36,427 bases of DNA from positions 1 through 36,427 of IMG/VR virus record IMGVR_UViG_3300017951_000045; one strand, given 5' to 3'. Origin of the DNA: a virus. The notes below the pieces were generated by a model. The model saw only the letters and a program-made list of their open reading frames with translations. It had not been told where the DNA came from and made no database searches. Positions 6,692 to 22,334 of the stretch are shown here, in pieces (within the stretch, counting starts at the first letter, position 1; the number at the start of each line of letters is the position of its first letter). A program made the translations under genes and the position numbers.

Positions 6692-8278
6692 TCAAGGGTT
6701 GCTGTAGTTACGCTCAAGCGGAGCAACCAGGGAGATACTATTTTCTTTTGATCTTGCAATTGTACTTTCAACAGAAACATACTGACCTGTTGATAAGCCA
6801 ATTGCAACTACAGTTACATCTGCATCTGTGTTTGCAGTTCGTCCACCTTGAACATTGTTGTCATAGTCAAAAGAAACTTCAACAAAATCTTGAGCGCCTA
6901 CATCACCCATTGCAGCTTGAGTAATAGTAAATGTACTACCCGCTGATTCAGTAGAAATTGTTTGTTGTACTAATTCAATTTGATTGGTGGTTACAGATGC
7001 AATCTTGTAATAGCCGTCGTTAGAACTAGTACCTTGTACATGAATGTATTCATCAACTGCGAAAGCAGTTGTAAAGTCAGTACTGCTGCTATTAATTAAA
7101 TCAGGTGCTGTAAAACTAATGTCAGTACCTTCTACTTCATCTGCAGCATGAACAATAACTGCATTAGCAGTTCCATAGTTACCAGCAGGGTTAGTAGTGT
7201 AGAACATCCGCCAAATTGCAGATGCATCGTTCTCTAAGTTGCCGTTAAAGTCAATTGTTGTTACTGCCACAAATGCAGCAGTATGTACAGCGCCATTGTT
7301 ATCACAGAAGAAATAACGGTTGATGTCAACAAGCTGAGTATTATCAATGTAAACACCAACGCCACCACCTTGGTCATTGGTAACTGCAAGGGTGTAAAGA
7401 TTGTCTCCAATAAATTCTGAAAACTGATCAGTAAGTTTACCAATTTGACCACTAGTTCCTGCATCAATATCAGTTGCTTTCCGCAATTGACGTTGAAGCC
7501 ATTGATAAACTTGTTCTGCAGTACCGTTATTAGCATCAACAATAATGCCAAATTGATAAGTAGTTCCGGCAATATCTCTTGATTGAGGTGTTGCGTAGAA
7601 CGTAACACTCATACCCGTATAAGGGGAAAGAGTATCAATATCGTTATCAGAAACAGTAACCTTAGAATCTGAACTTGTCTGCAGCGGGAAACGATAAGCA
7701 ATGGGCTGCATATTGCCCGTCACACCAATTGCTGTCAGGTCAGACTTGCCGTAAATCTGAGCTTGTTCCCTTACATACAAATCAAAAGAAGCCCTACGGT
7801 CAAAGCCATCTCCATAGGCTCCATCACCATTTGGGTCACTTAAAGTTTGAACCGCTTGATTGACCTGACCACTTAATTGGACATTGGTAGCGCCAGCTCC
7901 CTGATCAAAATAAAGCTGGTCATCAGCTTCAATTGAACCCAGGCCAACAATACCTGCCCATTCTTGTGTCGTATTGCCGCTGGTATTTTTAACTGCCCAA
8001 CCGGCAGTACGAATCAAATAACGAGACGCATCGTTAGCAAAATCCCAGCCTTCGACTAATTCAAAAGATTCGTCGGTAATTGGAATAAACGGAAACTCAA
8101 AGGGAATTAAAGTTGCATCGTCTTTCCATTCTTCCTTACAGAAAGAATACAATGCTTTAAGCGTCACACCATCGGTTGAAAGGTTGCCCGCCTCAGACAA
8201 AGTAATTGTCTTTGCTGTAGTGTTAAAAGCAACTTCTGTTCCTTGGTTTAGGTTATCGGGATCAACGATTAAGGGCAT
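6692..8278 (-). CDS. Probable tail structural protein or adhesin, 528 aa
   Basis: The N-terminus (TITLSEAGNLSTDGVTL then LKALYSFCKEEWKDD) shares layout with the 168-residue protein encoded at 4590-5096. The rest is long, beta-rich and aromatic-poor, with FEFPFIPITDESFELVEGWD and repeated Asp-Gly turns, as expected for a trimeric tail fibre or baseplate wedge protein. No catalytic motif is seen. It is transcribed with its neighbours on the minus strand, with gaps under 35 bases. Structural identity is inferred from composition and context. Confidence 0.6.
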   Translation of the reverse strand: MPLIVDPDNLNQGTEVAFNTTAKTITLSEAGNLSTDGVTLKALYSFCKEEWKDDATLIPFEFPFIPITDESFELVEGWDFANDASRYLIRTAGWAVKNTSGNTTQEWAGIVGLGSIEADDQLYFDQGAGATNVQLSGQVNQAVQTLSDPNGDGAYGDGFDRRASFDLYVREQAQIYGKSDLTAIGVTGNMQPIAYRFPLQTSSDSKVTVSDNDIDTLSPYTGMSVTFYATPQSRDIAGTTYQFGIIVDANNGTAEQVYQWLQRQLRKATDIDAGTSGQIGKLTDQFSEFIGDNLYTLAVTNDQGGGVGVYIDNTQLVDINRYFFCDNNGAVHTAAFVAVTTIDFNGNLENDASAIWRMFYTTNPAGNYGTANAVIVHAADEVEGTDISFTAPDLINSSSTDFTTAFAVDEYIHVQGTSSNDGYYKIASVTTNQIELVQQTISTESAGSTFTITQAAMGDVGAQDFVEVSFDYDNNVQGGRTANTDADVTVVAIGLSTGQYVSVESTIARSKENSISLVAPLERNYSNP

Positions 8279-11143: not shown

Positions 11144-11683
11144 ATGTTTAGCGGGACTCCTGAACAACCACCTGAACCCAGACCTCAAGGGAAAGAAGAA
11201 CCAGTAAGCAATGATCCACAGGGCAAGCCAAAGAGTGAACCCGTAGCTCGATTGGCTAATGAATTGATCAAGCTTTCCGGCCATGCTGCAAATCTGATGC
11301 TCCAGTCGCACCTGTTGCATTTGAATTATGAGTCCGGGAATTTCTTTGGCGTACACAAGTTTTCCAAGGAACAATACGAAAAACACCAGGCGCAATTGGA
11401 CCGCATAGGCGAACTTGTTAGGTCCTTGGACTTCTTGATGCCCATGTGTTCCAAAGGATTGCTTGGTGCTTGTAAAGGGTTTAGTCATATCACTGCCTAT
11501 GCAGGAGCATCAATGCTGATTACTTACTACGAAAACTTAGAAGCCTTTGGTATGGCATGTAAAAAAGTCGCTAAACTTGCTGGCAAAATGGAAGCTTATG
11601 ATATCGAAAATTACTGTGGTGAACTAATTGAAGATTGCTTTAGTGCTTCATGGATGGTTAAGGCCACTCTGCGTAATAGTTGA
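11144..11683 (+). CDS. dps: Dps-like miniferritin
   Basis: A 179-residue protein with the Dps/ferritin-like four-helix pattern. The phrase LHLNYESGNFFGVHKFSKEQ followed by YEKHQAQLDRIGEL places His59, His71, Asp86 and Glu90 with spacings of 12, 15 and 4. These match the H51/H63/D78/E82 iron ligands of E. coli Dps. The C-terminal ENYCGELIEDCFSASWMVKA fits the usual last helix with Trp. Dps dodecamers bind DNA and oxidise and store iron, protecting DNA from peroxide. Residues 1-35 form a Pro- and charge-rich tail (EQPPEPRPQGKEEP), longer than usual and possibly a DNA- or virion-binding arm. The gene stands alone on the plus strand between minus-strand genes, so it may be a separately expressed cargo gene. 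Confidence 0.75.
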   Translation: MFSGTPEQPPEPRPQGKEEPVSNDPQGKPKSEPVARLANELIKLSGHAANLMLQSHLLHLNYESGNFFGVHKFSKEQYEKHQAQLDRIGELVRSLDFLMPMCSKGLLGACKGFSHITAYAGASMLITYYENLEAFGMACKKVAKLAGKMEAYDIENYCGELIEDCFSASWMVKATLRNS

Positions 11684-11998
11684 ATCCATATCCTTTGGGA
11701 TATAGCTACGACCGTGGAGGATAAAATCTTCTACGGTCGTATTAAATGCTAAATACTGTATCGCTGTATTCATTCTATTCTCATCATCTTTAAACATACC
11801 TAGTCCTTTATTACAGTTCATGCATAAAAGACCACGTACTTTTCCTGTCTTGTGGCAATGGTCTACTGCTAAATTTTTTTTAGGCTTTTCTTTGCAGATA
11901 GCACAACAATGATCTTGATCTTTTAACATCTGCTCATATGTTTCTTCTGTGATGCCATATCTGTATTTCAAGTTATCCTTTCGTCGTGCCACGCACAC
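11648..11998 (-). CDS. Endonuclease VII-type HNH nuclease
   Basis: The 116-residue product has the endonuclease VII signature: a basic, aromatic start ending in YGITEETYEQML, CAIC (32-35), AVDHCHKTGKVRG with the catalytic Asp-His pair (about 46-49), CMNC (59-62) and NKGLGMFKDDE. The four Cys bind zinc, and the DHCH segment is the His-Me finger active site. T4 endonuclease VII (gp49, 157 aa) cuts Holliday junctions and branched DNA before packaging; short versions like this are also common as free-standing nicking or homing nucleases. The start is a GTG at 11998, the first after an in-frame stop. Its 3' end overlaps the convergent Dps gene by 36 bases. Confidence 0.8.
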   Translation of the reverse strand: MCVARRKDNLKYRYGITEETYEQMLKDQDHCCAICKEKPKKNLAVDHCHKTGKVRGLLCMNCNKGLGMFKDDENRMNTAIQYLAFNTTVEDFILHGRSYIPKDMDSTITQSGLNHP

Positions 11999-12021
11999 AT
12001 TTAATCTTTCTAAATAATAAC

Positions 12022-12050
12022 AAAAAAAGAGGGCGATTAAGCCCTCTCTT
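12022..12050 (-). terminator. Rho-independent terminator of the glycan operon
   Basis: AGAGGGC (12029-12035) and GCCCTCT (12042-12048) pair over 7 bp around a six-base loop. Read on the minus strand the hairpin is followed by seven T residues (12022-12028), so it ends the minus-strand unit that includes the gene at 12109-13383. On the plus strand the tail is CTTTCTTCC, so weaker two-way action is possible. Confidence 0.8.
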
Positions 12051-12108
12051 TCTTCCTTAAACCGTTGAACCTTGGGAACTATTGTTTACTAGATTTATGG
12101 AGTTCGAC

Positions 12109-13383
12109 TTACTCCTCCCTAACGATAGCAAAAATTAAATCATCGTATCTATTACGGGTCTCACGAACATCAAATACGCGAATACCGTCTTTAAACATTT
12201 CAGGCACACAATCTGACAACTGATCCAGGTGAGAGGGAGACTGGATGTCTTCAATAATAAGTACGCCTCCAGGATTCAAGAACTTGGAGTAATGCATCAG
12301 TGAAAACTTCTGACTGTCTAATGTATGGGGACCATCATCAATAATGATGTCATAGGTCTCTACACCCAAAGTTTCAATACCGGTTTTGGTATATGCATCC
12401 ATTTGATAAAAGTCATAACGATCAGGATCTAATTGATCCCAGATCACATCAGGAACAATATCCTGAATATCAACTAAAGTCATCTGCGCATTAGGCAGCC
12501 ACTCATGCCATAGCAAAGCAGAACCACCGTGCTGGATACCAATCTCCAACAACTTACAAGTACTCATGTCGCGGTACTGATCTAACAAATACGCATAGAT
12601 ACCTGTGAAATTATGAATTGTATTTTTATCAGTGCCACCTGAATATTCAAAACCGTTGATATTAAGATCTACCAACATACGTGCCATCTTTTCATTAGGC
12701 TCTTTCCAATGAGGTTGATCCATTGCCACGCCGTTTAAGTAATCCTTACTATATATATTTCTACCATAAGGTTGGGTATAGTGGTATGCTTTATCCTTTA
12801 AATTCATGTTAGTTTCCCAATAATTCTTGGCTTTTGGTTTGCCGCTTCCAATCCAAAACTCACGCATAAAACGTAAAGGATCTGATAAATAGCTGTCTTC
12901 ACAATTAACTGCTACATACGACGCTTTCGCCCACCAGAAACCTCCTGAATAGTGCGGCCAATATCCCATGGATGTATCTTCCTGCCAATTGATCCCAGTA
13001 GTCTCATAACCAGATTCCAAATCTTCCACACACTGCTTCCAGTTATGTACACAGAAGAATTGCATAACGCGCCGCCAATCTTCTGTATACTTCGTTTTGC
13101 GCGAGGAACCTTTGGTGTGGATATACAAGGCATAACCACTGGGATTTTCTTTGCACCAATCTCGTAGTGCTTCCAAAGTATTTGTTTCTTCCTGTTTGTT
13201 CTGATTCTCGACAGCAACAGCACGCTCTGGAACAGCGAGAAGATCAAGGCTCCCGTTAAAGCCAATATGAAAATAACTAAGTTGCTCATATAAGTTGCTT
13301 GTTAATAACGCACCAAGTTGTTCTTGGTACATTTCCTCCCAACCGTTACCAGGATAAACGTGATAAAAAAGTGCTAAATTCAT
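12109..13383 (-). CDS. Fused glycosyltransferase and SAM methyltransferase
   Basis: Two domains are visible in 424 residues. Residues 1-215 look like a bacterial/phage glycosyltransferase-like domain: MNLALFYHVYPGNGWEEMY, YALYIHTKGSS (84-94), DWRRVMQFF and HYSGGFWWAKASYV (144-157). The HTKG and SGxFWWA phrases are hallmarks of this family. Residues 230-424 are a class I methyltransferase: LLEIGIQHGGSALLW (SAM-binding loop, 278-292), MTLVDIQ, YDIIIDDGPHT (344-354) and NPGGVLIIEDIQ (370-381). These resemble sugar O-methyltransferases of macrolide and cephalosporin-hydroxylase-like type. The fusion would let one protein add a sugar and methylate it, or methylate the acceptor. It overlaps the C-methyltransferase gene by four bases and is last in its operon. 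Confidence 0.75.
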   Translation of the reverse strand: MNLALFYHVYPGNGWEEMYQEQLGALLTSNLYEQLSYFHIGFNGSLDLLAVPERAVAVENQNKQEETNTLEALRDWCKENPSGYALYIHTKGSSRKTKYTEDWRRVMQFFCVHNWKQCVEDLESGYETTGINWQEDTSMGYWPHYSGGFWWAKASYVAVNCEDSYLSDPLRFMREFWIGSGKPKAKNYWETNMNLKDKAYHYTQPYGRNIYSKDYLNGVAMDQPHWKEPNEKMARMLVDLNINGFEYSGGTDKNTIHNFTGIYAYLLDQYRDMSTCKLLEIGIQHGGSALLWHEWLPNAQMTLVDIQDIVPDVIWDQLDPDRYDFYQMDAYTKTGIETLGVETYDIIIDDGPHTLDSQKFSLMHYSKFLNPGGVLIIEDIQSPSHLDQLSDCVPEMFKDGIRVFDVRETRNRYDDLIFAIVREE

Positions 13384-16169: not shown

Positions 16170-17096
16170 TTATTGCCGAATTAAATCATAAGCTTCAGTC
16201 GTAACAGCTCCACCATAAGTATTCATGTAATCATCAAGAAATTGTTTTACTGCTTCTTGATTCTGTCCTTCAACATTCAATAGTTTTTCTACTTCACCCT
16301 TGGTAATCTGATTGCCAAACATGTCTTGATAGCGTCGTACATCAGCTGCTTTAACAGCTTGATCTTCTTCGTATGCACCAGACAGGGCCTTTGATTCTTC
16401 GGTTTCAAACCGCTGACCCATCTTTAATTTATTGGTAATCATCTCATCGTAGATTTTTCGTAAATCATTTAAACTATCAATATTTTTTATTCCTAGTTGT
16501 TGTTGCACTGCCTTTGAGCCAGGGATATCTCTAGCTCCTAAACTCCTAGCTGCACTAATAAACTTGTTGTATTCAGGTGTGCCAATGGCTTGGACATTAG
16601 GATCTACTCCTGAATAGCCAAGGAGCTTATCAAACGTGCCTCCTTTTGATGCAACCTTAAAATATTCTTTTTTTGGTTCTGCTAAATTTTTAAATTGTGA
16701 TTGAAACAACTTAATGCCTTCAATTTCTGCAGCAGCAGGAGTTTTAGAATAACCAGGGAAATAACCACCATCACTCAAAACAGGAGTCGTGCCGCCATCA
16801 GCACCTCCTTGTTGTCCTTTTCGCATAGCTTCGTAAGTAGCTTCAATTGCAGAAGCTGCTCGTTCAGGACTACCTTCTGTTGCTTTTTGAGAAGAAGTTT
16901 GGCCCGGTTGAAACCTGCCAGTGCTACCCATAAACTCTGCATAATTACCAATCCCAGCAGCTTCAAAGTTTGCGGCTCTATTAGCATCTTGCTCAGCACG
17001 CCTTTCTCTTACATAGCTAACATTCTGATCATCTCTATCTTTTAAATAATTTCTAATACTATCTAAAATAGCTTCTGACTGAGTATTGGCTGCCAT
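16170..17096 (-). CDS. Hypothetical protein, possibly a virion component, 308 aa
   Basis: A 308-residue soluble protein with a helical, charged N-terminus (NYLKDRDDQNVSYVRERRAE), a Gly/Ser/Gln-rich linker near residues 55-110 (GRFQPGQTSSQKATEGSPER) and a helical C-terminal half (GQRFETEESKALSGAYEEDQ). It has no enzymatic motif, signal peptide or membrane segment. A disordered linker between helical parts is common in phage internal or tail-associated proteins, and its neighbours on this strand are structural, so a virion role is plausible. The function is unknown. Confidence 0.5.
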   Translation of the reverse strand: MAANTQSEAILDSIRNYLKDRDDQNVSYVRERRAEQDANRAANFEAAGIGNYAEFMGSTGRFQPGQTSSQKATEGSPERAASAIEATYEAMRKGQQGGADGGTTPVLSDGGYFPGYSKTPAAAEIEGIKLFQSQFKNLAEPKKEYFKVASKGGTFDKLLGYSGVDPNVQAIGTPEYNKFISAARSLGARDIPGSKAVQQQLGIKNIDSLNDLRKIYDEMITNKLKMGQRFETEESKALSGAYEEDQAVKAADVRRYQDMFGNQITKGEVEKLLNVEGQNQEAVKQFLDDYMNTYGGAVTTEAYDLIRQ

Positions 17097-17198: not shown

Positions 17199-17372
17199 AT
17201 GGAGATTACAATTGCCACGGGGCAGTGGATTCCTGCTATCGCATCGGCTATGGTTGGCGCTGCCGATGGTGATACCTTTCTGCTGCCTTCAAATGCTCAT
17301 AAACATGCTTTTGAAATAGCTAAAAAAATTACAAAATCTACAAAACAATTTAAAGTGAGGATTCACAAGTGA
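17199..17372 (+). CDS. Small protein upstream of the primase-helicase, 57 aa
   Basis: ATG 17199 opens a 57-residue frame whose TGA overlaps the GTG start of the primase-helicase (GTGA), which suggests translational coupling. The product begins MEITIATGQWIPAIASAMVG, continues FLLPSNAHKHAFEIAKKITK and ends basic (STKQFKVRIHK). It looks like a strand-plus-helix mini-domain with no transmembrane segment. No family is recognised. A helper of the replication protein is a positional guess. The 100 bases upstream (17097-17198) hold no other gene and probably hold divergent promoters. Confidence 0.5.
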   Translation: MEITIATGQWIPAIASAMVGAADGDTFLLPSNAHKHAFEIAKKITKSTKQFKVRIHK

Positions 17373-19966
17373 AGCGAATGTCCAACGCTCTTCAACCAGG
17401 GGAAATTAATCTTGGACTGATTCCGGTTGATTGGCCTTTAACTCCCCTTGGCGATAAAAAAAATCCATATCTTGCTGGCTGGCAAAATAAACCTCAAACT
17501 GTTTCAGAAATCTCAAAAGAGATTGAAGCTGATACTTGTAAAGCAGTTGGCCTGCTCTCAGGCCCTGTATACAACGAACCTTATGGCTTGGTCTGGGTTG
17601 ATATTGATGGACCTACTGTCTATAAAACAATTCAAGAAATATCAGGCACCTCTGTAGAACAGGCTTTACCTAAAACACTCACAATCCTTAGCGGTAAAGA
17701 AGGCCGAGAGCGGAAACTTTACAAAGTTTTTAAGAAAGATTGGGACAAATTTATTAGGAATAAATACGCATGGCATGCAGAAGGTACAGGTGAAAAGCTT
17801 GAAATTCTTTGGAAGCGTCACCAAGGCGTCCTGATGGGTAGCCACCCAGATACAGATGGCTACTACACAAAACCAGATGAAGATTTTACTTTCGTAAATG
17901 ATCTGCCAGAAATTCCTGTCTGGGTCTTAGCTGGTATTGGTGCAAAGAATGCCAAGCAAGGTATCCCTGAAGAAACACAATCAAGAATGTTTGGCGAAAA
18001 CTTCGCCATCAATACCAAAATTGGTCATGAACATGAGATCAAAGAGGCTATCCGTGCCCTTTGGTCCTTGCCTTCTGAGTATGCTGATGATTATGACACC
18101 TGGTTAACAGCTGGACAAGCACTGCATTTTGTTGATGAAACCTTAGTTGATGAATGGGATGAATGGTCCAAGCAATCAGAGAAATATAAAGAGGGTGCAT
18201 GCCATGAAAAATGGCGCAGCTTTGACAAAGGTGGTGGCCTTACCGTTGGTAGCCTATATAAAGAAGCTCAAAAGCATGGATTCCAATTCTCACAAGACCA
18301 TAAAGTAATGCCAGTTTCAGACGATTCTATTGATGCACTCAGTGATTTACTGACAAGTATGTTAAACAATGAGCCGATTATGCCAGATAGTTTAGTAGAA
18401 ACTTTTGCTAACAAAAAATCTTTTATTCCTAGTGGTGAAACCCTGGAAGATAAAAGTAAGCGTAATGCTCCCGCTGATGAAATCTTAGATATTCTTACCC
18501 AGATGTATCAGGGTAATTTACTATTTTCTTCTGCATCAAATAAGTTTTGTTTGTATGAATATGAAGTCAGTGGACTGTGGTCTACATTGACTCAGCCACA
18601 GATGAAAAGAGACCTCTGGGCTAAACTTAAACTGCTTAAAAATACAGTGCTGCCAAGGGGTTTTGGCCTTAAGCTTGTTAACGATATGTACGATGGACTT
18701 TCTCAAGTTCTTCAACATGATTATTGGAATCAAGATAAGTCTCTAATCCTTTTCCGTAATGGTGTTTTTGATATCAGTACTGGTGAGTTAGGTGGATTTA
18801 AGAAAGAATATTACATCAATCGTTCATTGCCTTATGACTACGATCCATATGCCACCTGTGAACCAATCATCAACTGGTTGTATTTCACACAGCATGGCGA
18901 TAAAGAACGTGTGCAACTTCTTCGTGCATGGCTAAGAGCAGTCCTTACTTCTGCTGATGACATCCAAAAGTTCCTTGAAGTTGTTGGTCCTGGTAAATCA
19001 GGTAAGTCATCTTTTGCCAACCTTTGCCATGCCTTAGTTGGTTTTGAAAATGCGACAGTGTCCACACTGGAGCGTATTGAAAAAAATAGGTTTGAAACTG
19101 CTGAGATGGTAGATAAGAAACTTATCCTTTTTAATGATGTTGAACGGTATGGCGGTAACGTAACCATGCTCAAAGCATTGACTGGTACCGATCTAATCTC
19201 ATCTGAACACAAGTACCGTCAAACCAAAACTGACTTTAAATTTGATGGCCTTATCGTCATCACTGCTAATGAACAAGTTCAATCCACTGACCCAAGCTCC
19301 GGTCTACATCGTCGCCGTCTCACCGTTCCCTTCGATCGACCTTTCACAGGTAGCTCTAAAGAGCAAACCACACTCATCAATTGTGGACCCCACGGAACTA
19401 CTGGAATATTTACTGAACACTTACCAGGTCTTGTCAACTGGCTTCTGAAAATGTCAGAAGATGAAATGCGGGAATACCTGATGGAGACTTCCAAAAAGGT
19501 CCCGTATTTCCAGAAGTACAACACCCGTCAACAAGTCAGAGCTAATCCACTAATCGATTGGCTGAATCAAAACTGTATCTTCTTCCCGATGAAAGGTACC
19601 TTTGTTGGTGATTGTCGCCCTGCTCCTCGGGAAAGCCGTTACTACTACGCCAATACAGATAAAAAACTCTATGCAAATTACTGCGAGTTCTGTCGCTGTA
19701 ATGGCGGTAATGCAATGTCACGTTCTCGTTTTGAGAACATGCTCCTTGATATTCTTAATCACCAGCTCAATATCAATGTTTATAAACTCCCCAATATCCG
19801 TATGGTGTTTCTCCAGAACATCTTATTAAGGGAGTCAGAACAAACCCGTAATCTGGAAGATTATCCTTCTATTGTGGAGCTTGCACAGAACCCTGAGCAA
19901 TATCGTGGTCTTTATGGTGATGTCCGCATTAGATATAACGAATCCAAAGTAGAAGAATCAGAGTAA
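17369..19966 (+). CDS. Replicative primase-polymerase / SF3 helicase
   Basis: This 865-residue protein combines an N-terminal archaeo-eukaryotic primase (prim-pol) domain with a D5/P4-type superfamily 3 helicase. The primase part shows VWVDID (metal-binding Asp pair, 75-80), TILSGKEGRERKLYKV and QGVLMGSHPDTDGYY (152-166). A PriCT-like segment follows near 225-300. The helicase has VVGPGKSGKSSFANL (Walker A, about 538-552), DKKLILFNDVE (Walker B, about 582-592) and FDGLIVITANEQ (motif C). It would prime and unwind phage DNA at the replication fork. The start is GTG with GAGG upstream, overlapping the 57-residue gene; ATG 17378 is an alternative. No DNA polymerase gene is visible in this window. 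Confidence 0.85.
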   Translation: MKRMSNALQPGEINLGLIPVDWPLTPLGDKKNPYLAGWQNKPQTVSEISKEIEADTCKAVGLLSGPVYNEPYGLVWVDIDGPTVYKTIQEISGTSVEQALPKTLTILSGKEGRERKLYKVFKKDWDKFIRNKYAWHAEGTGEKLEILWKRHQGVLMGSHPDTDGYYTKPDEDFTFVNDLPEIPVWVLAGIGAKNAKQGIPEETQSRMFGENFAINTKIGHEHEIKEAIRALWSLPSEYADDYDTWLTAGQALHFVDETLVDEWDEWSKQSEKYKEGACHEKWRSFDKGGGLTVGSLYKEAQKHGFQFSQDHKVMPVSDDSIDALSDLLTSMLNNEPIMPDSLVETFANKKSFIPSGETLEDKSKRNAPADEILDILTQMYQGNLLFSSASNKFCLYEYEVSGLWSTLTQPQMKRDLWAKLKLLKNTVLPRGFGLKLVNDMYDGLSQVLQHDYWNQDKSLILFRNGVFDISTGELGGFKKEYYINRSLPYDYDPYATCEPIINWLYFTQHGDKERVQLLRAWLRAVLTSADDIQKFLEVVGPGKSGKSSFANLCHALVGFENATVSTLERIEKNRFETAEMVDKKLILFNDVERYGGNVTMLKALTGTDLISSEHKYRQTKTDFKFDGLIVITANEQVQSTDPSSGLHRRRLTVPFDRPFTGSSKEQTTLINCGPHGTTGIFTEHLPGLVNWLLKMSEDEMREYLMETSKKVPYFQKYNTRQQVRANPLIDWLNQNCIFFPMKGTFVGDCRPAPRESRYYYANTDKKLYANYCEFCRCNGGNAMSRSRFENMLLDILNHQLNINVYKLPNIRMVFLQNILLRESEQTRNLEDYPSIVELAQNPEQYRGLYGDVRIRYNESKVEESE

Positions 19967-19994: not shown

Positions 19995-21245
19995 ATGTCT
20001 AAGCCAAAGATTCTTTGGTCAGCGGATGCTGTTGCTAAAACAGGATTCGCACGGGTGACTGAAAACCTAGTCGAACGATTAAAAGATAAATATGAAATCG
20101 TAATCCTTGCCAATAACTGGTGGGGAGATGCCTGTGAGCTGCAAAAACATTTCAAGATGTACCCCAGCTCCAATCGCTTTCAACAAGAACCCTTTGGTGT
20201 GCAACGCATTCGAGAGATTGTTGATAAAGAAAAGCCCGATATCGTCTTCGTAAATAACGATTGCTGGATTGTCAACCAGCTCTATTCACAAATTAAAGAC
20301 TTCCATGGTGAAGGGCGTTTCAAATTCATTGCCTACATGCCAATGGATTCCTATGCCTGGACTGGTTGTCTTACTGAATACTCCAACAGTTGGGATGGCA
20401 TTATCGTCTATACCGAATTTGGTGCAGCTGAATTCCATGCCTCTGGTGTAACCAAACCGGTTACTGTCATTCCCCATGGCATCACGGATGGTCAGTTCTA
20501 TCCCATGGATAAAGCTGAATGTCGTCGGGTGCTTCACATCCCTGAAGATTCCTTTGTTGTCTTTAACGGCAACCGTAACCAGGCTCGTAAGCGTATTGAC
20601 ATCACGATTGATGCTTTCGCACAATTTGCAGTCGGACGTCCTGATGCCAAACTTTATCTCCATATGGGTCTCAAGGATCAAGGTTGGGACGTCATGCAAC
20701 TGTTTGGCCGACAGATGCGTAAGAACGGTCTTGATCCCAATGGCCGCATCATCATGACTGCACAGTCTCCGCAGCCCCCATCGGTACCTGTAGAAATGCT
20801 CAACATGATCTACAACAGTGCCGACGTCTCCGTTAATACCTGTAAGGGTGAAGGCCATGGTCTGGTCAACCATGAGTCAGCAGCTTGTGGCGTTGCTCAG
20901 GTGGTGCCTAACCACACCTCTCTTAAGGAGATCTTTGAAGGTGCTGCACCCCTGATTGATAACTGCTTCATGGATGTAGACATGAACTACAACCGGGACA
21001 TGCCAGTACCAAGTGCTGAGCATCTGGCGGAGATCCTGGCTGACCTCTATGACAATCGTGACAAGCTTCGTGAGATTGGTGCCAAGTGCTTCGGTCGAGC
21101 AACCGACAAGAAGTACCAGTGGGACACGATTGCGTATCAATTTGAGAATGAGTTTGCAGAGGTACTGAAACCTGCTGAAGAACGAGAGGTAACGGTGATC
21201 AAAAAACCAAAGCGCAGGCGAAAGAAAGAAGCTGTCAGTGCTTGA
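19995..21245 (+). CDS. GT4-family glycosyltransferase
   Basis: The 416-residue protein has the GT-B layout of family 4 retaining transferases. The N-terminal domain starts PKILWSADAVAKTGFARVTE (acceptor side). A middle segment reads TVIPHGITDGQFYP and VVFNGNRNQARKRIDITIDA. The donor site CKGEGHGLVNHESAACG carries the E-x7-E pair (Glu286, Glu294). The C-terminus is a basic tail (KKPKRRRKKEA) that may bind membrane or nucleic acid. It transfers a sugar from a nucleotide donor; the acceptor is unknown. Its second half is visibly more GC-rich than its surroundings, which may indicate a different origin. A strong terminator follows four bases after the stop. Confidence 0.8.
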   Translation: MSKPKILWSADAVAKTGFARVTENLVERLKDKYEIVILANNWWGDACELQKHFKMYPSSNRFQQEPFGVQRIREIVDKEKPDIVFVNNDCWIVNQLYSQIKDFHGEGRFKFIAYMPMDSYAWTGCLTEYSNSWDGIIVYTEFGAAEFHASGVTKPVTVIPHGITDGQFYPMDKAECRRVLHIPEDSFVVFNGNRNQARKRIDITIDAFAQFAVGRPDAKLYLHMGLKDQGWDVMQLFGRQMRKNGLDPNGRIIMTAQSPQPPSVPVEMLNMIYNSADVSVNTCKGEGHGLVNHESAACGVAQVVPNHTSLKEIFEGAAPLIDNCFMDVDMNYNRDMPVPSAEHLAEILADLYDNRDKLREIGAKCFGRATDKKYQWDTIAYQFENEFAEVLKPAEEREVTVIKKPKRRRKKEAVSA

Positions 21246-21248
21246 TCC

Positions 21249-21269
21249 AGGGGCTCCGGCCCCTTTTTT
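21249..21269 (+). terminator. Rho-independent terminator after the GT4 gene
   Basis: AGGGGC (21249-21254), a four-base loop and GCCCCT (21259-21264) form a 6-bp GC-rich stem. The last T of the stem begins a run of six T residues (21264-21269). It isolates the glycosyltransferase transcript from the palindromic region that follows. Confidence 0.85.
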
Positions 21270-21281
21270 CATGTCTTGTAA

Positions 21282-21577
21282 TGAGACAGGTGAGTGAGAT
21301 TCGTGAGTCAAGAAGCTAGTGACCCCCTTATTTTTCTTTTTTTCTCTGTATGCCTACAAATTTGGCATGCAAATCTGTATCCCTGTGGAAAAGGTAACCC
21401 TTGGTTCTCAATAAAGCCTGCGGTAATCGCAATAAGCGGGGGATGGGGTTGCGTTCCAGGAAGGCAGGATTAGAGTGGGAACAAATCTGCACGCCAAATT
21501 TGCACGTCTACTAAATAAAAAAGTTATTTAAGGGGGACAATGCCACTATGTCTCTAAAATCTCACTCACTTGTCTCA
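21282..21577. repeat. 296-base imperfect palindrome in the gene-free stretch
   Basis: Two 96-base arms, 21282-21377 and 21482-21577, are inverted copies with equal spacing. The outer 20 bases match at 19 of 20 positions. The inner 21 bases (21357-21377 against 21482-21502) match at 18 of 21. The 55 bases between them match at about 31, including CCCCCTTA and a CTTTTTT run in the same register, with no gaps needed. The 104-base centre is only weakly symmetric and contains G-rich runs and GCGGTAATCGC. This region (21246-21608) holds no gene that I can support. It could be a replication origin, a multi-site operator, a recombination or insertion site, or the footprint of a small inverted-repeat element. 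It lies one gene downstream of the primase-helicase. Confidence 0.75.
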
Positions 21578-21608
21578 CCTTGAGACTTCAAAACCCTTGC
21601 TATCACTC

Positions 21609-22334
21609 ATGCCACGCAAAAATCCAGCTCCCAACCAGCGCCACAAAACCCTTTCAGACATCAATTACCGTCTCGTTGATCTCAATCGAGACTTAAATGA
21701 GCAAGGTTTTTACCACGGCTTCCCCTGCATGTATGGTCACACCATTCGAGATAAAGAAGAGCATTGGTGTGCGACTTGCGTGAGACGCATCATGAGTAAT
21801 GTCTGTGGCTTTGACGTCAACTTCATCTCAGCTCCTTACCGCAACGAGCTGCCACGTCTCATTGACAAGCTTCCTGACGTATCAGCAACTGAATGCTGGC
21901 CGATCGATAAGCCCTCAATCAGATTCCGTATGCCGTCCTGGAGGACTGCGTTTACGCGTGAAAGCAGTGACAATATCAATATCAGAAAGATTCTCTACAC
22001 AGCCTTCTGGGGTGATGTCGGAAGCCTTTATGTCACGAAGCTAAAGAAGCACACTGGTTGCAGTACTCCCAACTGCATTAACCCACTTCACTTGGCATCA
22101 TCATTTAATCTGCGTCCGGCTCCTAAAGATTTTCATTACAAAGAACTTACATATGACCCCAAGAAAATTACTGTTATGGCATTGCGTGAAGCAAACAATC
22201 TAAGTATTGACGATATCTTAGAAGCGTTGTATAAGCCAACAATTAGAGATCCTAAAATGGGAATAACAGACATCCCTGAAAGGACATATTGTGAGCAATC
22301 CGAATCTATCTCAAAGGGAGAGATCACAATTTAA
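21609..22334 (+). CDS. HNH-like protein with Zn-binding motifs
   Basis: From ATG 21609 the product has 241 residues. An upstream in-frame TTG at 21570 lies inside the palindrome arm, so I prefer the ATG. Residues 36-57 (HGFPCMYGHTIRD... CATC) give a Cys-x3-His...Cys-x2-Cys zinc-binding set. Residues 127-163 contain KILYTAFWGDVGSLYV then HTGCSTPNCINPLHLASSFN, close to the HNH_3 homing-endonuclease pattern in which CxNPxHL carries the catalytic His. A C-terminal helical region may bind DNA. It may be a free-standing nicking or homing nuclease, or a DNA-binding derivative. It is the first gene after the palindrome and overlaps the next gene by 44 bases. Confidence 0.6.
   Translation: MPRKNPAPNQRHKTLSDINYRLVDLNRDLNEQGFYHGFPCMYGHTIRDKEEHWCATCVRRIMSNVCGFDVNFISAPYRNELPRLIDKLPDVSATECWPIDKPSIRFRMPSWRTAFTRESSDNINIRKILYTAFWGDVGSLYVTKLKKHTGCSTPNCINPLHLASSFNLRPAPKDFHYKELTYDPKKITVMALREANNLSIDDILEALYKPTIRDPKMGITDIPERTYCEQSESISKGEITI

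Follow-up and report, generated by a model that had tools for sequence, protein, structure and literature searches.

The plasmid pRN1 depends on a stem-loop, about 100 nt in length and located downstream of its replication gene, that is conserved in structure and not in sequence (Berkner et al. 2014, PMC4234260). A similar stem-loop has been pointed out in the BPP-1-type phages BPP-1, BIP-1 and BMP-1, which carry a protein with the same domain set, and origin loading by the Prim-Pol/SF3 helicase has been proposed for both pRN1 and phage BPP-1 (PMC4234260). PICI origins lie 3′ of rep, with iteron sets on both sides of an A/T-rich region (PMC6092414). In P4, the SF3 primase-helicase gene (alpha) is followed by a terminator and then by crr, two 120-bp iteron-bearing repeats 60 bp apart. 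For NrS-1, whose SF3 region is related, the part of the report drawn on here gives one recognition site per strand, suggested as the origin; these sites are 8 nt long, and that part describes no large palindrome (PMC7102993).

We analysed a window, a 36,427-nt contig of an S-EIV1-like cyanophage, that carries a large palindrome in a comparable setting. The gene order is primase-helicase, glycosyltransferase, terminator, palindrome and p241. The proposed initiator is the 865-aa primase-helicase (17369-19966, plus strand), in which Pfam identifies Prim-Pol, PriCT_2, D5_N and SF3/DUF5906 domains. The nearest protein from an isolated phage is that of Synechococcus phage S-EIV1 (49% identity over 98%), and a protein of an IMG/VR contig is 92% identical.

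The likeness is closest to pRN1 and BPP-1. As in pRN1, a large stem-loop lies 3′ of the replication gene and past a terminator, here with one glycosyltransferase gene in between, and as in both systems structure is conserved while sequence is not. In BPP-1 we find the palindrome indeed present, with arms of 48 bp around a loop of 8 nt, and it shares with the S-EIV1-like palindromes a single order of parts: a central dyad, an A/T core with a G-run, and outer direct repeats. The replication proteins of BPP-1 and the window likewise share one domain set of Prim-Pol, PriCT/helical, D5_N and SF3. Unlike their counterparts in pRN1 and BPP-1, S-EIV1-like palindromes have longer arms (up to 146 bp), spacers of up to about 150 nt, a conserved left-right polarity and usually an intervening glycosyltransferase gene; they also belong to genomes some 80 kb long, and a family A DNA polymerase is among the S-EIV1 genes.

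The P4 and PICI parallels are more partial. P4 crr repeats are direct, whereas those of the window are inverted and do not form a direct-repeat pair; in P4, moreover, ori is a distinct site about 4.5 kb from crr, and the primase is of another type (PMC4234260). SaPI/PICI origins resemble the window in lying immediately 3′ of the replication gene with two iteron sets, and SaPI5 provides the best structural match to the primase-helicase. They have one A/T-rich region between the iteron sets, whereas the palindromes described here have one A/T core per arm, and the window spacer is not A/T-rich (48% A+T against 60% for the contig). Taken together, the pRN1/BPP-1, P4 and PICI parallels would place the element in a known origin type rather than a new category.

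Among about twenty SF3 primase phages and islands outside the S-EIV1-like group, most lack a large palindrome near the gene, including the Prim-Pol/SF3 phages VP5, PIN1 and Fury; BPP-1 and Microcystis phage Mae-JY02 have one. In Mae-JY02, a palindrome with 65-bp arms and GGGGAAGAT-like repeats (7753-7928 of our locus L132) lies about 100 nt past a D5-type helicase gene and is a second candidate origin of this kind.

Geometry and setting of the palindrome

The palindrome in the window is longer than first reported. Direct alignment of the arms at 21282-21377 and 21482-21577 reproduced the 68 of 96 ungapped pairs and 104-nt centre of the preliminary description, and extension with +1/−1 scoring lengthened each arm to 113 bp (21266-21378 and 21481-21593, both annotated on the plus strand), leaving a 102-nt spacer (21379-21480). 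Recomputation likewise returned the reported match of 19/20 between the outer blocks (21282-21301, TGAGACAGGTGAGTGAGATT, and 21558-21577, both plus strand) and 18/21 between the inner blocks, with all four mismatches transitions. The inner dyads read ACAAATTTGGCATGCAAATCTGT on the left (21356-21378) and ACAAATCTGCACGCCAAATTTGC on the right (21481-21503). Between dyad and outer block, each arm has an A/T-rich core: a left one with a C5/G5 run, placed by the equivalent position in relatives (21321-21349, minus strand), and a right one with a G5 run (21510-21538, plus strand), the richer of the two at 72% A+T.

This symmetry far exceeds chance. The 113-bp arms score 43, against 9.4 ± 1.1 and a maximum of 14 in 200 dinucleotide shuffles, and the region folds as a single strand far better than shuffles both as DNA (z −6.7) and as RNA (z −7.6). 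The first description named two tests that could overturn it, dinucleotide shuffles and conservation in related phages, and the palindrome withstands both. An automated repeat finder did not list it, presumably because its settings were unsuited to long, 70%-matched arms.

The surroundings are largely as first described. No conserved gene lies inside the palindrome, and the strong terminator noted on its left is present as an intrinsic terminator of the upstream operon (21249-21270, plus strand), with a 6-bp G+C-rich stem at 21249-21264 and a T-run. The element had been placed just downstream of the primase-helicase region; a glycosyltransferase gene (19995-21245, plus strand; Pfam/PHROGs) in fact intervenes. 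The first gene downstream is p241 (21609-22334, plus strand), which encodes a zinc/HNH-like protein.

Two neighbouring reading frames merit mention. A 308-aa ORF at 16170-17096 on the minus strand has no family match; it occurs in one relative (L005) among those searched and is thus probably a recent arrival. The frame at 23674-24438 matches PHROG 3704 ("ferredoxin", E 3.5e-90) and no Pfam family, and the label may be unreliable.

Fixed position, changing sequence

The palindrome keeps its place across S-EIV1-like phages. Using the glycosyltransferase and primase as baits, we collected about 90 IMG/VR loci, of which 73 are distinct. The strongest ungapped inverted repeat of the locus falls within the 500 nt past the glycosyltransferase stop in 61 of these 73, and the median palindrome score there is 24, compared with an average of 10 in other windows. 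The shortest arms are about 20 bp and the longest 146 bp; most spacers fall between 0 and about 160 nt, and they contain no gene. By gapped alignment the palindrome emerges, or becomes stronger, in several remaining loci (z 11 in S-EIV1, 9.1 in L086 and 5.7 in L053) and is weak in three (L014, L016 and L072); six loci (L017, L028, L074, L078, L080 and L082) give no sign of it even by gapped search. In L086 the glycosyltransferase gene has been relocated to a site downstream of p241, yet the palindrome still separates the primase cluster from the p241 operon; the element is thus not bound to the glycosyltransferase gene. Each of five S-EIV1-like genomes and the window has a single copy. Shared 11-mers occur elsewhere 15 times against 2.2 expected, all in three genomes. 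We found no earlier description of the palindrome in S-EIV1-like phages among the openly accessible papers searched.

Symmetry persists while the sequence turns over. Palindromes of distantly related genomes are mostly unalike, and left and right arms of one genome score 34.8 against each other on average, a value inflated because arms were picked by that very score, compared with 8.6-9.6 between genomes. Where both members of a pair had changed among alignable relatives, complementarity was restored in 103 of 167 cases, versus 25 of 60 when the register was shifted by one to three bases, although these counts are not independent because the compared pairs share genomes. Among relatives at least 80% identical, all 11 of 11 double changes were complementary. 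These paired changes maintain symmetry and do not support the earlier suggestion that a once better palindrome is decaying. Plus-strand GT mismatches (173) are about as frequent as AC mismatches (165), without strand bias, which indicates that symmetry is kept in DNA and not for the pairing of one RNA strand. To judge from the aligned arms, it could arise from selection or from gene conversion between arms.

In p241 of the window and homologues in 33 loci, a zinc-ribbon accompanies an HNH-like Cys pattern, and the usual HNH catalytic His is seemingly replaced in most (mostly by Arg) and retained in a few. By these residue patterns p241 may belong to a degenerate HNH family, possibly one that only binds DNA; a Foldseek search with the p241 model returned nothing significant. 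Many relatives carry an ORF of about 115-125 aa between palindrome and p241 that is absent from the window, and L086 has a small HNH-like ORF between right arm and p241 (p241 at 11618-12298). The S-EIV1 gene AHV82135 (147 aa) seems to be annotated too short: the homologous frame has 225 aa (16670-17344 in L004, corresponding to about 7030-7704 of S-EIV1 KJ410740) and overlaps the tiny opposite-strand genes AHV82136 and AHV82137.

Arm anatomy and covariation with the primase-helicase

Arms share an order of parts rather than a sequence. From the centre outward, a dyad is followed by an A/T-rich core, often with a G or C run after it, and then by direct repeats; examples are the dyad ATGACACTTT...AAAGTGTCAT, the core CTTATATAAAGATAAAA and the outer direct repeat CCCCAAAGTCGGAAAGTCCG. 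Compact palindromes, such as that of L086, have one central dyad common to both arms, and L084 carries an iteron array of six ATGACACTTT repeats with a 12-bp period. A Gibbs motif search converged on the outer repeat CCCCAAAGTCnG and on no single universal core; the motifs are thus phage-specific. L084 alone has an extra dyad copy just before p241 (8112-8153), which might be an autoregulatory operator or the beginnings of a second site; among relatives, additional operator copies before p241 are clear in no other genome.

The two arms also differ consistently. The more A/T-rich arm is the right one in 40 genomes and the left one in 5, a TATA-like core lies on the right in 32 and on the left in 4 of 59 genomes, and wCGTAA occurs in eight left cores and no right core; these counts are only indicative, because the patterns were written after viewing the arms and the genomes are related.

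In predicted structure the primase-helicase resembles helicases that form rings. Its AlphaFold model (pLDDT 80.8) matches the SaPI5 primase-helicase best among PDB entries (Z 26.8, residues 356-825), and also matches poxvirus D5/E5, NrS-1 (Z 16.9) and papillomavirus E1. By this modelled fold, its matches are helicases of the ring-forming kind, and origins are the site of action of several of them. We take the NrS-1, D5 and ASFV matches as relatives in fold alone. In proteins of the pRN1/BPP-1 type the C-terminus is a winged-helix DNA-binding domain; within the whole-protein model of the window's primase-helicase, the C-terminus has fair confidence, and its alignment with SaPI5 and D5 proteins reaches about residue 825.

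Arm motifs covary with this C-terminal region. Across 39 genomes, arm-motif similarity correlates best with primase residues 706-845 (rho 0.47) and more weakly with the helicase core, p241, the primase N-terminus and the glycosyltransferase. When all other regions are controlled for, residues 706-845 alone remain positive in four of four settings, which combine motif measures and dereplications (partial correlation 0.13-0.30, p 0.002-0.048); for p241, p is 0.04 in a single setting, and neither the glycosyltransferase nor the primase N-terminus has a positive partial correlation. The signal within the primase is not C-terminal alone, as windows 421-480 and 721-780 both stand out. These sequence comparisons give moderate support to covariation of the palindrome with the C-terminal domain of the initiator. 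A DNA-binding role of the C-terminus has been described for P4 alpha and pRN1 ORF904 (PMC4234260), and by analogy the covariation fits such a role.

A proposed replication origin and its alternatives

We consider the palindrome to be probably the replication origin of these phages. Among the roles floated at the outset, this one has the most in its favour: where the element lies, how widely it is conserved, how its motifs covary with the C-terminus of the primase, and the parallels with pRN1, BPP-1, P4 and PICIs. In this model, the dyad and repeat sites of both mirror-image arms would be recognised by the Prim-Pol/SF3 primase-helicase that the phage itself encodes, probably through the C-terminal domain of that protein. 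One helicase ring would be loaded per arm, the inverted arms placing two rings head to head; the A/T-rich cores would melt, the right one before the left, and primers made on both strands would send two forks in opposite directions. Protein binding, melting, ring loading and bidirectionality are steps that we infer. The right arm may double as promoter of the p241 operon, a role compatible with that of an origin.

Some observations weigh against an origin. A glycosyltransferase gene separates the palindrome from the initiator gene in most genomes, and the six relatives without a sign of the palindrome have the same primase. Base composition, proposed earlier as a check, is neutral to mildly unfavourable. 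Averaged over 59 loci, GC skew does break exactly at the palindrome: it is about +0.05 to +0.14 to its left and about −0.03 to its right, and S-EIV1 and two other genomes break there too. At 4-fold sites, however, the change is mostly gene-strand bias, with a residual drop of about 0.1 opposite to the usual sign for a bidirectional origin; skew falls from left to right, and the palindrome is not a minimum of cumulative skew. Because the skew is mostly coding bias, we do not count it for the origin.

The chief competing explanation, which we regard as unlikely, is a promoter-operator hub: a phage regulator, perhaps p241 itself, would bind the symmetric sites and control rightward transcription of the p241 operon, the left arm being a second operator or an antisense promoter. 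Much of the arm anatomy suits it: each arm has dyad and direct-repeat sites, as the early idea of a multi-site operator would have it, the right arm looks promoter-like (TATA-like core in 32 of 59 genomes against 4 on the left; more A/T-rich in 40 against 5), a start codon follows the right arm shortly in L086 and others, p241 is a zinc/HNH-like protein, and L084 repeats the dyad just before p241. What places it below the origin is that the left arm is conserved though it points into the 3′ ends of opposite-strand genes, that every genome checked except L084 has the motifs in a single copy, and that controlling for the primase C-terminus removes the covariation with p241 or leaves it borderline. 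A scan limited to consensus sigma-70 −35/−10 promoters found none at the palindrome of the window, with 1.0 expected.

Other readings fare worse. Long symmetric arms and HNH-like proteins encoded alongside would suit a site of recombination or DNA processing, at which a resolvase or HNH nuclease cuts an extruded cruciform in, for example, concatemer resolution or packaging; yet arms matching at about 70% around spacers of up to about 150 nt are ill suited to extruding one, the catalytic His is mostly missing from p241, the terminase genes of S-EIV1 lie elsewhere and the palindrome covaries with the primase, so we think this very improbable. An RNA hairpin, whether long terminator, structured leader or small RNA, is slightly less credible still. 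The RNA folds far better than shuffles (z −7.6), but the balanced GT and AC mismatches favour the pairing of neither RNA strand and display no tolerance of G-U pairs, a separate compact terminator already stands upstream, and the binding of protein to DNA accounts better for symmetric repeat sites with A/T cores. Least probable of all is the small terminal-inverted-repeat element of the preliminary description, or a remnant of one: inverted arms do flank a centre, but the palindrome occupies the same syntenic place in more than 60 relatives as a single copy, with no multiple or mobile copies, its spacer of mostly 0-160 nt has no gene, and its sequence turns over while symmetry is maintained.

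A fuller form of the origin proposal is speculative, and we lean against it as a whole. It describes a mirror-twin origin in a phage of about 80 kb, in which each arm, with its dyad, A/T core and outer repeats, would be a complete loading site and one protein would load two rings head to head. A built-in polarity from left arm to right would link the start of replication with transcription of the operon that follows, and the sites would evolve rapidly with the C-terminal domain of the initiator, such that relatives do not cross-initiate.

Origins of phages with Prim-Pol/SF3 replicases are mostly not known, and the pRN1-type stem-loop model is based on a handful of sequences. The S-EIV1-like palindromes add sixty to seventy natural variants of constant geometry and changing sequence, which would serve as a readout of the bases that the initiator recognises. 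They make the stem-loop origin model testable in S-EIV1, an isolated phage. If the palindrome is indeed the origin, replication specificity between co-occurring cyanophages would be predictable from sequence alone.
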